This document shows, in pieces, positions 1,854-22,161 of a DNA stretch of 23,005 nucleotides. How positions within the stretch are numbered: position 1 is the stretch's first letter; each line of letters opens with the position of its first letter. The notes beneath the pieces are model-generated. The model made no database searches, was not told where the DNA came from, and was given only the letters and a program-made list of their open reading frames with translations. Where the stretch lies: the IMG/VR virus record IMGVR_UViG_3300044641_009303, positions 1-23,005 of that record, one strand, 5' to 3'. The DNA comes from a virus. A program made the position numbers and the translations under genes.

Positions 1854-3338
1854 TTAATTAGTTTTACCACCAATTCTATTTTGCATTTGAGATAATTTGT
1901 TAGCTTCTTTTTTATCACCAGCTAAACTCGCAATTGTTTTTGAAGCACTAATCATTGTTGAGGCGATTTTATCTTTGGTTTTTTGTGGAATCCATTTCAT
2001 AATACCTGATTCATCCATAGTTCCACCAATTGCAGATAATTGTGCGGCATCAATAACACCTTCTTTAGGTAATTTTGTTCCATCTAATTTTGCAATACAT
2101 TTTTGCCATATTTTAACCGCGTTTAATGTATTTTCGTCAAAATCATTACCTCCTGTGATTTTTTTAGTATCAATTGTTGGACAATAACCTTTATATGTAA
2201 AATTATAACCATTAGGACTTGAGAAAAATTGATTGACTACGGCAACGTCTTGACCACTTGAACCCAATGAAAGTTCTCGTTGTTTTACCATCCAAGCTGT
2301 TGCAACACCTGCCACCGCAGCGGTTGCACCTCTTTTACTAAAAAGTTGAGATATAAATTTTTCAACATTAAGTAAAATGTTATCAATAAACCCAAAAACC
2401 GCATTTATAACAGGTTTTGCTTTTGGAATGTACTTAATGATTAAATCTCCAAAACTTTTAATTGTACTTTTTAACCACGGCATTTTTTCTAATAAAGCCT
2501 TTAACATTTTAACTGTGGCAGATGGGGCTTTTTTAATTCCTTGTTTTAATCCAATTTTAGTTGCTGACCCTGCTGCGGCGGTAAATGCTAAAGATATTAA
2601 ATCTGTCACTAAGTACATATAAGGGCTTGCCGCTCTATCCGGGTCTTCAGGGTCATAATTTTTATTTTTAATCTCCCACATATCCAAAATAACAATCATT
2701 GCCCAAACTAATTTATTAGCACCTGTTGTTAATGGTATCATTGCTGTAACAACATCAACTACAATTCCAATTGATGTCATTGAATTCCTTCTAATCCATC
2801 TTAAAGCTGGAATAAAAGCTCCCATCATTAATTTGCTTGCAAATTGTTTACCAATACTTAAGACTTTATTTCCAATTTTTGATGCGTTTTTTGTTGACCA
2901 AAAATCTTTATTAAATGGATTATAAGTTTGTTCTAAGATAACATCACTCGTATGGTATTCTTTAATAATTTGGGATACAGTTTCTTTTGTCCATTCAATA
3001 CCTTCCAAAACAAATTCAACCGTTTTTGATGCTTCTTCACGTAACATATCAAATGGTGCCGTTGACATTAAAGTTTCTTTAATAATTTCTGTTATTACCC
3101 AAGTGTTTTCCCATATACTACCAATAAGTTTTCCACCTGAAAAAACTTCGTCCATGTAAATGACATATTTTTTATTTTCGGTCATTACAAAATCAAACAC
3201 ATAGTCATTCAATTTAAGGGAAGTCGTTTGTGAATTTAAAGAATTTAAGTTTTCATTCAAGGTTTTTGATGAATCATAATTCATCCTTAATTTAATGGCT
3301 TGTAATGCTTCTTCAGGAGAATATTTAGGTTGTATCAT
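1854..3338 (-). CDS. Large tagged hydrophobic late protein with PG-binding-like domain (probable internal virion protein)
   Basis: 494 residues, no family recognised. The N-terminus (7-30) contains EEALQAIKLRMNYDSSKTLNE, a putative targeting tag ending in L-N-E, which fits an (I/L)-x-E prohead-protease site. Residues about 165-260 are largely hydrophobic, with likely membrane-active helices near 186-203, 209-221 and 241-258; a Lys-rich amphipathic stretch follows (265-335), then an Ala/Gly-rich helix (337-350). Residues about 357-437 resemble a PG_binding_1-type repeat (LGSSGQDVAVVNQFF, then a NAVKIWQK core) with an insertion bearing Cys386 and Cys413. The box TATTTATA ends just 3 nt before the ATG. 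Hydrophobic helices plus a wall-binding-like domain would suit an ejected protein that helps DNA cross the envelope; that is inference. Confidence 0.85.
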   Translation of the reverse strand: MIQPKYSPEEALQAIKLRMNYDSSKTLNENLNSLNSQTTSLKLNDYVFDFVMTENKKYVIYMDEVFSGGKLIGSIWENTWVITEIIKETLMSTAPFDMLREEASKTVEFVLEGIEWTKETVSQIIKEYHTSDVILEQTYNPFNKDFWSTKNASKIGNKVLSIGKQFASKLMMGAFIPALRWIRRNSMTSIGIVVDVVTAMIPLTTGANKLVWAMIVILDMWEIKNKNYDPEDPDRAASPYMYLVTDLISLAFTAAAGSATKIGLKQGIKKAPSATVKMLKALLEKMPWLKSTIKSFGDLIIKYIPKAKPVINAVFGFIDNILLNVEKFISQLFSKRGATAAVAGVATAWMVKQRELSLGSSGQDVAVVNQFFSSPNGYNFTYKGYCPTIDTKKITGGNDFDENTLNAVKIWQKCIAKLDGTKLPKEGVIDAAQLSAIGGTMDESGIMKWIPQKTKDKIASTMISASKTIASLAGDKKEANKLSQMQNRIGGKTN

Positions 3339-18319: not shown

Positions 18320-18526
18320 ATGAAACTACTTTTAGCACTTTTTTTAATTATAATCCGAATTTTTGTTGGATTCAAGATATTAGTATGGTTATTTCAGGAA
18401 AGTAGATATCCCGAACTTCATTCAATATCTGAAATTGAATTTTATTTGGTGATTTTAATTCTTGACACTTGGGTTGCAATTTCCCACGCTGGAATTGACG
18501 TATCTGTAAAAAAAGAAGATAATTAA
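18320..18526 (+). CDS. Small membrane protein, early
   Basis: 68 residues. The first 24 are a membrane segment (LLLALFLIIIRIFVGFKILVWL) that could be a signal anchor; a second hydrophobic stretch follows at about 41-57 (EFYLVILILDTWVAIS), with a charged tail VSVKKEDN. It lies as a single plus-strand gene between two minus-strand late genes and has a host-type promoter with 4-nt spacing to the ATG, so it is predicted to be early and leaderless. Its stop overlaps that of PPK2 by 4 nt. A superinfection-exclusion or envelope role is plausible but not shown. Confidence 0.72.
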   Translation: MKLLLALFLIIIRIFVGFKILVWLFQESRYPELHSISEIEFYLVILILDTWVAISHAGIDVSVKKEDN

Positions 18527-19623
18527 GGTTTCAACACCGCAAGTGCTTCGGGATAATCCTTATCTAACACTTGTTCATTTTTACCTTCATAAGGTATGTT
18601 TTGTAAAACATATCTCATAGCGTTTAGACCTGAAACTCTTTTGTCTTCAGCATCAACAATAACCCATGGGTTATTTACGGTTGATGTTTTGTCAAATAGT
18701 TTTTCTTTGAACTCAGTGAACCTATCCCATAAATCTTGCATTTTAGAATCGTTTGGTGAATATTTCCAATATTTTAAAGGAGATTGTTGTCTAATGTCAA
18801 ATCTTCTTTTTTGTGTGTCTTTGTCAATTGAAAACCATAATTTGAATAAGTAATCACCTTCTTTAACTAAATCACTTTCAAAGTTTTCAACATTTTCCAT
18901 AAAGTCCTCATATTCTTCAGGAGAACCATAACCCATTACAGGTTCAATTAATCCTCTATTGTACCAACTTCTATCAAATAAATTAATCATACCAGGTTTA
19001 ATTTGGTTTTTATATCTACCCCACCAATCGGCCCTATCCTCAGGTGTAGGTACACCTAAAGCAATAATATTATAATATCTTGGGTTTAAATTTTCAACAA
19101 ACTTTTTAATTGTTGAACCCTTACCTGCTGAATCTCTACCTTCAAAAACAATGATTACAGTTTTACCTGTATTCTTTAACCATTCTTGAAGTTTCAATAA
19201 CTCAACTTGCATTTCATAAAGTTCTTTCTTAAAAACTTTCTTTGGGATAATTGATGGTTCCTCAATTTCAAACTCATAGTCCTCACTTTCAGGTTCTGAA
19301 CCGTATCCACTGCGTTCTCTATATTTTAATGAGTTAACAATTTTACCCAAATAATCTTGAGCGTTTTTCTTTTTGTCGCCCTTTTTAAGTAAGATTTTTC
19401 TTAACCCTCTTTCTAATAAACCAAAATCAATAACTTGTTCTTTTGCTAATACGCTAATTTCCATTAACATATTCTCAATAGTTTTGTTGTATAATTTCAA
19501 ATATTTCAAAATATCAACCGTTTTACGTAAGTTGATATTCATTTGTTTATTACTTTCTTTATCCGTTTCGGTAATAATTCCCATAACGGATTGGATTCTC
19601 TCTATTTCACTTAATAATTTCAT
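18523..19623 (-). CDS. ppk2: Polyphosphate kinase 2 family protein with phage-specific N-terminal tag and extension
   Basis: 366 residues. The PPK2 catalytic domain (about 130-350) transfers phosphate between polyphosphate and nucleotides. Walker A GRDSAGKGS (162-170), Walker B DRSWYNRG (217-224), GVPTPEDRADWWGRY (190-204), and lid KRRFDIRQQSPLKYWKYSPND (272-292) are intact, arguing for an active enzyme. The lid type is usual for ADP- or AMP-phosphorylating PPK2s. The first 125 residues are not part of normal PPK2: they begin with LLSEIERIQSVMGIITET, matching the tag of the 402-residue late protein, then have a Lys-rich helical stretch and an acidic linker. I-T-E (17-19) is a candidate prohead-protease site. 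A TATTTACA box lies 18 nt before the ATG. Packaging in the head is inferred; a normal cytosolic late enzyme is the alternative. Confidence 0.93.
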   Translation of the reverse strand: MKLLSEIERIQSVMGIITETDKESNKQMNINLRKTVDILKYLKLYNKTIENMLMEISVLAKEQVIDFGLLERGLRKILLKKGDKKKNAQDYLGKIVNSLKYRERSGYGSEPESEDYEFEIEEPSIIPKKVFKKELYEMQVELLKLQEWLKNTGKTVIIVFEGRDSAGKGSTIKKFVENLNPRYYNIIALGVPTPEDRADWWGRYKNQIKPGMINLFDRSWYNRGLIEPVMGYGSPEEYEDFMENVENFESDLVKEGDYLFKLWFSIDKDTQKRRFDIRQQSPLKYWKYSPNDSKMQDLWDRFTEFKEKLFDKTSTVNNPWVIVDAEDKRVSGLNAMRYVLQNIPYEGKNEQVLDKDYPEALAVLKP

Positions 19624-19760: not shown

Positions 19761-20873
19761 ATGAAAAATCTATCAAAGGAAGAACTATTGAGCAGAATGG
19801 AGGCAATAAATAGAAGTAATGCAATTATCTATTTTGACCTCAACGGAATAATTTTAGGTGTTAACTCTATCTTTTTACAATCAATGGGATATGGTGTAGT
19901 TGAAGAGATTATTGGTAAACATCATAGTATTTTTGTGTGTGAAGATTATGCCAAGTCATCAGAGTATGAAAAGTTTTGGGATATATTAAGAAGTGGTAAA
20001 TATTATCAAGGAGAATTTGAGAGAAGAAGAATAGATGGGAGTATTATAAACTTGCAAGCAACATATAATCCTATTTTTGATGAAAATGGTAAGATAACCA
20101 AAATAATGAAAGTTGCAACTGACATCACTACGATTATAAATAGTAAAAAACAAATAGATGCAATTAACCGAAGTACCGCAACAATCACTTTTGATATGAA
20201 TGGGATTATTTTGGATGTAAATGAAATATTCCTTGAAACAATGGGTTATAAATCCAGTGAAAAAAAACAAGTAGTTGGGAAACACCACAGTATTTTTGTA
20301 AGTTATGAGTATTCAAAAACTGACGAATATCGTAAATTTTGGGAAAATTTAAATAGTGGTAAAATTTTAGAAGGGATATTTGAGAGAAAAAAAGTGGACG
20401 GTTCCACTGTTTATTTACAATCAACCTACAATCCGGTCTTTGATAATAAAGGGAATGTTATAAATGTAATAAAAATTGCAACTGACGTTACCGAATCCGT
20501 GAATAATAAAAAAGAAATTGATTTATTATCAAATAATTTACAAGTAGAGTTAGACAATTCAAAAAAACTCAAAGATGCGATTGAAATAGAAAGAAACACC
20601 GCATTAAATGATTTGGACTCAACTCTCAAAAAAAGTCAAAATGAGTTAATTGGGACTATTGTTAAATCCGCATTGGGCGTCATTCTTAGTGTTGGAATTA
20701 TAACCACTACAATGTATTCATTTGCAATTCTTTCAAATAAAGACACTCAAATAATTGGTTCAACTTGGAGTAACATGTTTAGTGTTTTACTAACAAATGC
20801 ATTTTCAATAGTCGGTACAATTATGGGAATTAAATACGCAACTCAAGAAGAGAGAAAAGATAATATTAAATAA
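19761..20873 (+). CDS. Twin-PAS sensor protein with C-terminal two-helix membrane module; candidate regulated holin
   Basis: 370 residues. Two PAS domains lie at about 12-123 and 134-245, each beginning AINRS and ending ATDIT or ATDVT, with the pattern W-x-x-L-x-S-G-K ... G-x-F-E-R+xDGS ... L-Q-x-T-Y-N-P found in chemoreceptor-like PAS domains. They are clearly a duplication. A coiled coil (246-296) leads to two membrane helices (about 299-322 and 336-358) and a short charged tail. There is no kinase, cyclase, HAMP or methyl-accepting output domain. The gene starts the cassette, 26 nt before the endolysin, where phages place holins. I infer a membrane protein whose pore or signal activity is governed by PAS ligand state. 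Alternatives: a host chemotaxis decoy or a membrane sensor unrelated to lysis. Confidence 0.8.
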   Translation: MKNLSKEELLSRMEAINRSNAIIYFDLNGIILGVNSIFLQSMGYGVVEEIIGKHHSIFVCEDYAKSSEYEKFWDILRSGKYYQGEFERRRIDGSIINLQATYNPIFDENGKITKIMKVATDITTIINSKKQIDAINRSTATITFDMNGIILDVNEIFLETMGYKSSEKKQVVGKHHSIFVSYEYSKTDEYRKFWENLNSGKILEGIFERKKVDGSTVYLQSTYNPVFDNKGNVINVIKIATDVTESVNNKKEIDLLSNNLQVELDNSKKLKDAIEIERNTALNDLDSTLKKSQNELIGTIVKSALGVILSVGIITTTMYSFAILSNKDTQIIGSTWSNMFSVLLTNAFSIVGTIMGIKYATQEERKDNIK

Positions 20874-20899: not shown

Positions 20900-21742
20900 A
20901 TGTTACTAAAAATTGGGTCTAAAGGAGAAGACGTAAAAAAACTCCAATCAAAGTTAAATCTTAGTGCCGATGGTATCTTTGGTGCAGGTACTGCCGCTGC
21001 AGTTAAAAAATGGCAATCAGAAAATGGTTTGGACTCTGACGGTATTGTCGGTGATGGAACATGGGGTAAAATGTTTGGAGTAGAAACTATTAAAGAAGAT
21101 AAAATTATAATCCCAACTGTTGTTAATGTTTCATCAGTAGGTGGTTTAAAGATTGATAAACTAAAAGGTCATATTCCAGATTCAGTTATTGCTCAAATCC
21201 CTGAAACTGCGGTAAAGTTTAATATCACAACTAATTTACGATTGGCTCATTTCTTGGCACAATGTAGTCACGAATCAGTTAACTTTAAAGCTGTGTCTGA
21301 AAACTTAAACTATTCTGCGGACGGATTGAAAAAAATCTTCCCTAAGTATTTCCCTGGTAATATTGCTGAGTCATACGCAAGAAACCCTGAAAAAATTGCA
21401 TCCAAAGTATATGGTAGTAGAATGGGCAATGGTGATGAAACAACAAAAGAAGGTTTTAAATTTCGTGGAAGAGGTTATATCCAATTAACCGGAAAACAAA
21501 ATTATACTAACTTTGCAAAGTTCATTGGTGAAGATACTGTAAGTAATCCTGATTTAGTTGCAACCAAATACCCTTTGGCTTCTGCGGCTTTCTTTTTTGA
21601 CACAAATAAGTTATGGTCTATTTGTGATAAAGGTGCTGATGACGCCACTGTAACCGCAGTAACAAAAAGAGTTAATGGTGGTACTATAGGGCTGAATGAC
21701 CGTATCAAACATTTTAATGAATACTATAAATTATTATCATAA
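20900..21742 (+). CDS. Endolysin: PG-binding domain plus GH19 catalytic domain
   Basis: 280 residues. Residues 1-60 are a PG_binding_1 repeat (LLKIGSKGEDVKKLQSKLN ... DGIFGAGTAAAVKKWQ ... DGIVGDGTWGKM). After a short linker the GH19 (chitinase-like) domain runs about 85-280: FLAQCSHESVNFKAVSEN with catalytic Glu125, EGFKFRGRGYIQLTG with second Glu184, and NYTNFAKFIG, NPDLVA and TKRVNGG, all family hallmarks. It would cleave glycan bonds in peptidoglycan. There is no signal peptide or signal-anchor, so export needs a holin, which supports the upstream PAS/membrane gene in that role. The next gene starts in its stop (TAATG). Confidence 0.95.
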   Translation: MLLKIGSKGEDVKKLQSKLNLSADGIFGAGTAAAVKKWQSENGLDSDGIVGDGTWGKMFGVETIKEDKIIIPTVVNVSSVGGLKIDKLKGHIPDSVIAQIPETAVKFNITTNLRLAHFLAQCSHESVNFKAVSENLNYSADGLKKIFPKYFPGNIAESYARNPEKIASKVYGSRMGNGDETTKEGFKFRGRGYIQLTGKQNYTNFAKFIGEDTVSNPDLVATKYPLASAAFFFDTNKLWSICDKGADDATVTAVTKRVNGGTIGLNDRIKHFNEYYKLLS

Positions 21743-22161
21743 TGCAAAACTCAGAACCATTTGTTTACAATAGTGAATTTTTACCGAGTGTACAAATTGC
21801 AGTGGTTTTTGAGGAAGACCCTCAGTATGAAAATTTGAGAGAATTCTTTCAGGACTATGGTTATGGGTTTATGGTTCCTGGTAAGAATTTAGTAATTGTT
21901 GATGGTGAACAATTGGTGAACGGTTTTGGACATGAAGTTTTAAAGTTCATTGAGGCTCATGAAATAGCACACATTATCATGGGTCACGATGGTCCAAGAA
22001 GTGAAGATGATGAAATAGATGCTGATTTAGGGGCTTATATTTTATTATCAAAATCAGGTAAAACCGATTCTATTAAAACATTGTTAAAACAATTTAAACA
22101 TAGACACGGAATAAAATTTGAGGAAAAATTATTGGATAGAGTAAAAAATTACTTTTCTTGA
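21742..22161 (+). CDS. HExxH metallopeptidase-like protein (HEIAH/EIDAD), coupled to endolysin
   Basis: 139 residues, overlapping the endolysin stop as TAATG. The motif FIEAHEIAHIIMGH (70-83) gives His73, Glu74 and His77, and 14 residues on EIDADLGAY (91-99) fits an E-x-x-A-D third-ligand helix, as in gluzincins and ImmA-like domains. LREFFQDYGYGFMVPGKNLVIVDG (32-55) is the typical preceding strand. No helix-turn-helix is fused, so it is not a complete ImmA/repressor unit. Position suggests a peptidase used at lysis (peptide bonds of the wall or a host protein), or an injected or late protease; it might equally be a passenger gene. The cassette terminator lies downstream. Confidence 0.8.
   Translation: MQNSEPFVYNSEFLPSVQIAVVFEEDPQYENLREFFQDYGYGFMVPGKNLVIVDGEQLVNGFGHEVLKFIEAHEIAHIIMGHDGPRSEDDEIDADLGAYILLSKSGKTDSIKTLLKQFKHRHGIKFEEKLLDRVKNYFS

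Follow-up and report, generated by a model that had tools for sequence, protein, structure and literature searches.

A viral gene that encodes two PAS domains followed by a membrane hairpin, and that ends 26 bp upstream of an endolysin gene, raises the question of whether its product opens the membrane itself, as a holin timed by a sensed cue, or acts on lysis in another way. When to lyse is the chief life-history decision that a lytic phage makes, and, to our knowledge, sensing is known to influence it only in cases such as lysis inhibition triggered by superinfection. The gene lies in a 23,005-nucleotide fragment of an IMG/VR virus record (hereafter, the window), and its features are listed in Table 1. 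We consider it slightly more likely than not that the PAS–hairpin protein serves as a sensor-to-membrane switch by which the phage modulates lysis; it is probably not the holin itself.

The sequence-only reading had described two PAS domains, a coiled coil and a C-terminal membrane hairpin with no signalling output domain, and this architecture is confirmed by the open reading frame, Pfam, hydropathy and an AlphaFold2 model. Two stretches of the protein match PAS families (PAS_3, 2e-24, and PAS_9, 2.9e-21); the PAS_3 score of 86 bits, against a Pfam cut-off of 25.6, places it among PAS-domain proteins, and the fold obtained with AlphaFold2 and Foldseek agrees. In the model (mean pLDDT 83, pTM 0.45, with 29 homologues as input), the two PAS folds are followed by an unbroken helix spanning residues 244–324, in which the coiled coil runs into TM1, and by a second helix at residues 330–362. 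The top Foldseek matches include MmoS, a tandem PAS protein, as well as DosP, NifL and FixL. Pfam detected no output domain, and neither an H-box nor a HATPase, so the protein does not classify as a histidine kinase. No curated holin family in Pfam, PHROGs or NCBIfam matched it, family searches returned no antiholin family, and no PADLOC model assigned it to anti-phage defence. The membrane module is itself unrecognised by Pfam and NCBIfam and is weakly matched by one PHROG of unknown function. TM2 bears a stripe of polar and small residues (helical moment p 0.013, nominal). An FAD-type PAS looks unlikely, as the Trp and Asn of Aer are replaced in the alignment, judged by eye.

Table 1. Features of the lysis region in the window (positions in nucleotides of the window)
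Feature	Position	Strand	Basis
68-aa two-TM protein, rival holin candidate	18320..18526	+	hydropathy; no family match; same family in 9 loci
PAS-PAS-coiled coil-membrane module protein, 370 aa	19761..20873	+	ORF, Pfam, hydropathy, AlphaFold2 model, 269 viral relatives
PAS 1, residues ~16-125	19806..20135	+	Pfam; ~55% identity to phage histidine kinase PAS
PAS 2, residues ~139-248	20175..20504	+	Pfam; missing in one-PAS (~248 aa) form, ~45 loci
Signalling coiled coil, residues ~249-295	20505..20645	+	AlphaFold2 model: continuous with TM1
Conserved membrane module, common to PAS-fused and two-component-linked forms	20610..20855	+	module profile A5, E 7.5e-46; alignment
TM helix 1, residues 296-314	20646..20702	+	hydropathy
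TQIIGSTWSNMFSVLLTNAFSIVGTIMGIKYAT, residues 329-361, invariant, n=54 unique homologues	20745..20843	+	contains TM helix 2
TM helix 2, residues 339-357	20775..20831	+	hydropathy
Endolysin, PG_binding_1 and GH19	20900..21742	+	Pfam; no membrane segment by hydropathy

An initial IMG/VR scan with the PAS protein retrieved the viral relatives counted in Table 1, the best 80 of them at 74–100% identity, and since full-length relatives exist at this level, the open reading frame is not a chance one. The membrane part alone retrieved 298 relatives. Among them is the one-PAS form, whose start and membrane end match those of the two-PAS form. The 54 closest unique homologues vary in the PAS domains and coil but not in residues 329–361, which comprise TM2 and the segment preceding it; the sample was gathered through conserved peptide seeds, with the best 80 kept per scan, and is thus biased to conserved members. 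Synonymous codons within this stretch differ as often as elsewhere, which points to selection on the protein and rules out a DNA-level element behind the 33 invariant residues. Using exact peptide seeds, we found no bacterial or archaeal relatives in one genome each of about 85,000 species. The module was also absent from the INPHARED phages, so no cultured representative was found; all module-bearing loci are metagenomic contigs, and the hosts of these phages are probably Bacteroidota.

The genomic setting ties the gene strongly to lysis. Among 60 dereplicated loci with enough flanking sequence, 53 carry an endolysin gene within three genes of the PAS gene, always on the same strand, and it is on this count that the strength of the tie rests. 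By a rough estimate, which takes about 200 genes of which one or two encode endolysins, such proximity would be expected by chance in a few percent of loci. The endolysins fall into four sequence clusters (GH19, 24; Peptidase M15, 15; GH24 phage lysozyme, 7; and PG_binding GH19-like, 7) and are found on either side of the PAS gene, the gene order varying among loci. In several loci, the PAS gene is also flanked by spanin-like proteins, with a lipobox or as one-TM coiled-coil proteins, judged by eye. The position in the lysis cassette that was originally noted for the window is conserved across the family. In the window's endolysin, which the sequence-only reading described as having no secretion signal, the hydropathy scan shows no membrane segment. 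Other genes were observed around the window's lysis genes. A polyphosphate kinase 2 gene (PPK2, 9e-70; 18523–19623, minus strand) adjoins them, and in one relative (L006) a PPK2 copy separates the PAS gene from the endolysin. Directly 3' of the endolysin, a gene on the plus strand (21742–22161) encodes an M48-like metalloprotease, below the Pfam cut-off, with the HExxH-like motif EAHEIAH; such a protein is also found near the endolysin in several relatives.

Whether the hairpin is the hole-former depends on what else the cassettes encode. The initial claim that the cassette had no other candidate holin proved too strong: the window has a 68-aa two-TM gene, whose family directly precedes the PAS gene in one relative (L004), and the fragment ends before the place where its sisters carry c1, a protein of about 85 aa with two TM helices and no database family, predicted to be a holin or holin partner. 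In sisters of the window's lineage, about 6.4 kb separates the PAS gene from c1, which is on the opposite strand and falls beyond the window's end. This c1 gene is found within four genes of the PAS gene in 44 of the 60 dereplicated loci, and proteins of the Phage_holin_4_1 type (PF05105) are present in the cassettes of 9 of the 60. Of 16 module-bearing records tested for c1, PF05105 and Phage_holin_10 (PF23987), 15 have at least one: 14 carry c1, and one of the 16 carries PF05105. The remaining two records lack c1: G018 encodes PF23987, and G001 stops short of the position that c1 occupies in its sister G002. In a further locus (L330), PF23987 directly follows the endolysin.

The hairpin is thus not the only candidate hole-former in the relatives, which carry PF05105, PF23987 or c1 in the same cassette or record, and its proposed part as a stand-in holin is not supported by them; for the window, the comparison extends to a 23-kb fragment. 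The sequence-only reading had itself named a conventional holin elsewhere in the genome as the finding that would speak against a holin role. Such holins are present in relatives, which weakens that role for the family; the window's own fragment yielded none that is recognised. Comparison with the neighbouring membrane proteins gave no origin for the hairpin: descent as a c1 paralogue (hhalign probability 2%) and kinship with the other neighbouring TM proteins were both rejected for now. Profile comparison thus lends no support to an antiholin paralogous to c1. c1 itself is likely a new holin or holin-partner family. It has at least 590 viral relatives, including L007:7474-7731 and 111 other loci, and in INPHARED it occurs only in Flavobacterium phage immuto, where it adjoins the endolysin and is annotated as 'hypothetical protein'. 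Elsewhere in the window, two adjacent minus-strand genes (594–1802 and 1854–3338) each encode a protein with what resembles, on inspection by eye, a peptidoglycan-binding-type stretch, and a weak, sub-threshold PF23987 signal lies at 1146–1241.

A search for the same module with and without PAS had been proposed at the outset, and PAS-less forms do exist, fed by a two-component pair. A scan with c1 led to jumbo-phage contigs that have neighbour genes in common with the window but in which the module sits on a PAS-less coiled-coil protein of 225 aa. Proteins of this form measure about 190–228 aa, with the module at the C-terminal end of a coiled coil and no Pfam match. Upstream of them come a histidine kinase (GAF, PAS, HATPase) and a response-regulator receiver of 145 aa (PF00072); downstream, many loci have a GH19 endolysin. 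In each of the 79 retained loci where the gene directly 3' of the response regulator is readable, that gene encodes the module protein. Relatives of the receiver occur in at least 588 contigs, and a degenerate module profile matches at least 552; the stand-alone receiver has no match among INPHARED phages. One operon (L541) reads kinase, regulator, module protein, a 179-aa protein, c1, an M15 endolysin and a 4-TM holin-like protein. In three marine loci (L552, L564 and L594), the kinase–regulator–module unit stands beside virion-like genes, with no adjacent endolysin. The signalling residues are well kept: the H-box RHDMHSGI is present in each of the 146 unique kinases, a set gathered with a less strict version of the motif, and the phospho-Asp in 100 of 101 unique receivers. 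Most of the 124 unique module proteins have a core of the type W[SA]N..GILLTN[AS]FSI[VI]GTI[ML]G[IV]KY. Phage-encoded histidine kinases were seen, for example, at L285:6726-8849 and L330:3342-7593, and some loci have two kinases together with a protein of about 200 aa.

The two forms appear to be alternative inputs to one module. Across 35 records, they are mutually exclusive: 20 are PAS-fused, with a single module each and without such a receiver, 11 combine a single module with a single receiver, and 4 lack both. Moreover, PAS 1 of the window is 55–57% identical to the PAS of module-linked kinases (E about 1e-42). Most simply, a kinase-like PAS would have fused straight onto the hairpin protein, with loss of the relay; the relay form may instead derive from the PAS fusion. 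PAS domains 41% identical to the window's were also observed in a human faecal phage fragment (MT836939.1; L155:920-1690), in a 630-aa open reading frame, where the match spans the PAS part only (residues 13–264).

These data bear on three other explanations. It is unlikely that the protein itself is a holin or a pinholin-like channel gated by PAS input. A two-TM hairpin directly 5' of an endolysin lacking a membrane segment, in a window with no family-recognised holin, would fit such a role, as would the nominally significant stripe on TM2; against this, most module-bearing records have recognised holins or c1, in two loci (L330 and L541) holin-type genes share the operon, and the hairpin is almost invariant, unlike holins, which are usually very variable. 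It is because recognised or candidate holins usually coexist with the module protein that we regard it as probably not the hole-former.

Slightly less likely still is a membrane effector unrelated to lysis, acting, for example, in superinfection exclusion or on host membrane energetics and travelling with the late genes. Abortive-infection layouts also combine a sensor with a TM effector, some of the units stand beside virion-like genes, and TM2 is invariant, as though its partner were a conserved host component. Nevertheless, PADLOC returned no match, and same-strand linkage to four endolysin clusters, maintained through shuffled gene order, speaks against it. A decoy that damps host PAS or chemoreceptor signalling, with no direct membrane output, would suit PAS domains of a general bacterial sensor type, yet seems very improbable, given that the membrane hairpin rather than the PAS is the most conserved part, that it persists in PAS-less proteins and that a dedicated kinase and regulator are encoded alongside it.

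We therefore return to the sensor-to-membrane switch. For it, the analysis shows the architecture and its conservation, the exchange of sensors between mutually exclusive forms, the linkage to lysis cassettes and, in relatives, the coexistence with holins; the direction of control, the cue, the ligand and the action of the hairpin on the membrane are what we infer. In the proposed mechanism, the cytoplasmic PAS domains would sense a cue, and the signal would travel along the continuous coiled-coil helix into TM1. The near-invariant TM1–TM2 hairpin, in the inner membrane, would then restrain or trigger a separate holin, which releases the endolysin. In the other form, a phage histidine kinase and a stand-alone response regulator would drive the same hairpin on a PAS-less protein, and the window protein would represent a one-gene short circuit of this two-component relay. 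The hairpin might either block the holin, in an antiholin-like manner, or leak ions and so trigger it; the stripe on TM2 is compatible with both. Collapse of the proton motive force sets off lysis in inhibited cells (PMC7182436). Near-invariance of the hairpin in phages whose holins differ greatly is unexpected for a protein that binds the holin, and could reflect a conserved host partner.

Taken more broadly, there is perhaps an even chance that hundreds of aquatic phages tie holin–endolysin lysis to a sensed cue, through either a kinase–receiver–hairpin or a one-gene PAS–hairpin, with the hairpin as a new membrane signal output. If so, many phages would measure the state of the cell before lysing it, by PAS or two-component input. 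The module would define one testable family, as only the sensor is swapped, with a membrane output that Pfam and NCBIfam had not previously recognised. What is new is the system as assembled, the PAS, kinase and receiver parts being of already known kinds. Searches of the open-access literature returned no description of phage lysis under PAS or two-component control, and in a survey of jumbo phages a Rec domain was never found in kinase systems (PMC7824862).

The closest functional parallels are lysis inhibition in T4, with holin T and antiholins RI and RIII, and the TeaA/ArrA system of ICP1, in which, as proposed here, holin–endolysin timing is adjusted to a sensed condition (PMC11413866, PMC7182436). 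Of the T4 antiholins, RI reaches the periplasm by export and RIII stays in the cytoplasm; by description, the T4 and ICP1 systems have no PAS, no coiled coil running into a TM hairpin and no kinase or response regulator. Phage_holin_4_1 and Phage_holin_10, likewise small TM proteins, occur in cassettes or records that carry the module and are encoded by genes of their own. On the sensor side, MmoS, DosP, NifL and FixL share with the window protein tandem PAS folds followed by signalling helices. The output differs: in bacterial PAS sensors, it is a kinase, cyclase, phosphodiesterase or chemoreceptor domain, whereas in the window protein it is a viral membrane hairpin. Similarly, the PAS-less form resembles bacterial two-component systems in its kinase, with H-box and ATPase (HATPase_c), and in its PF00072 receiver with a phospho-site, but the dedicated gene after the receiver, which often belongs to a lysis cassette, encodes a coiled-coil membrane hairpin rather than a DNA-binding protein.
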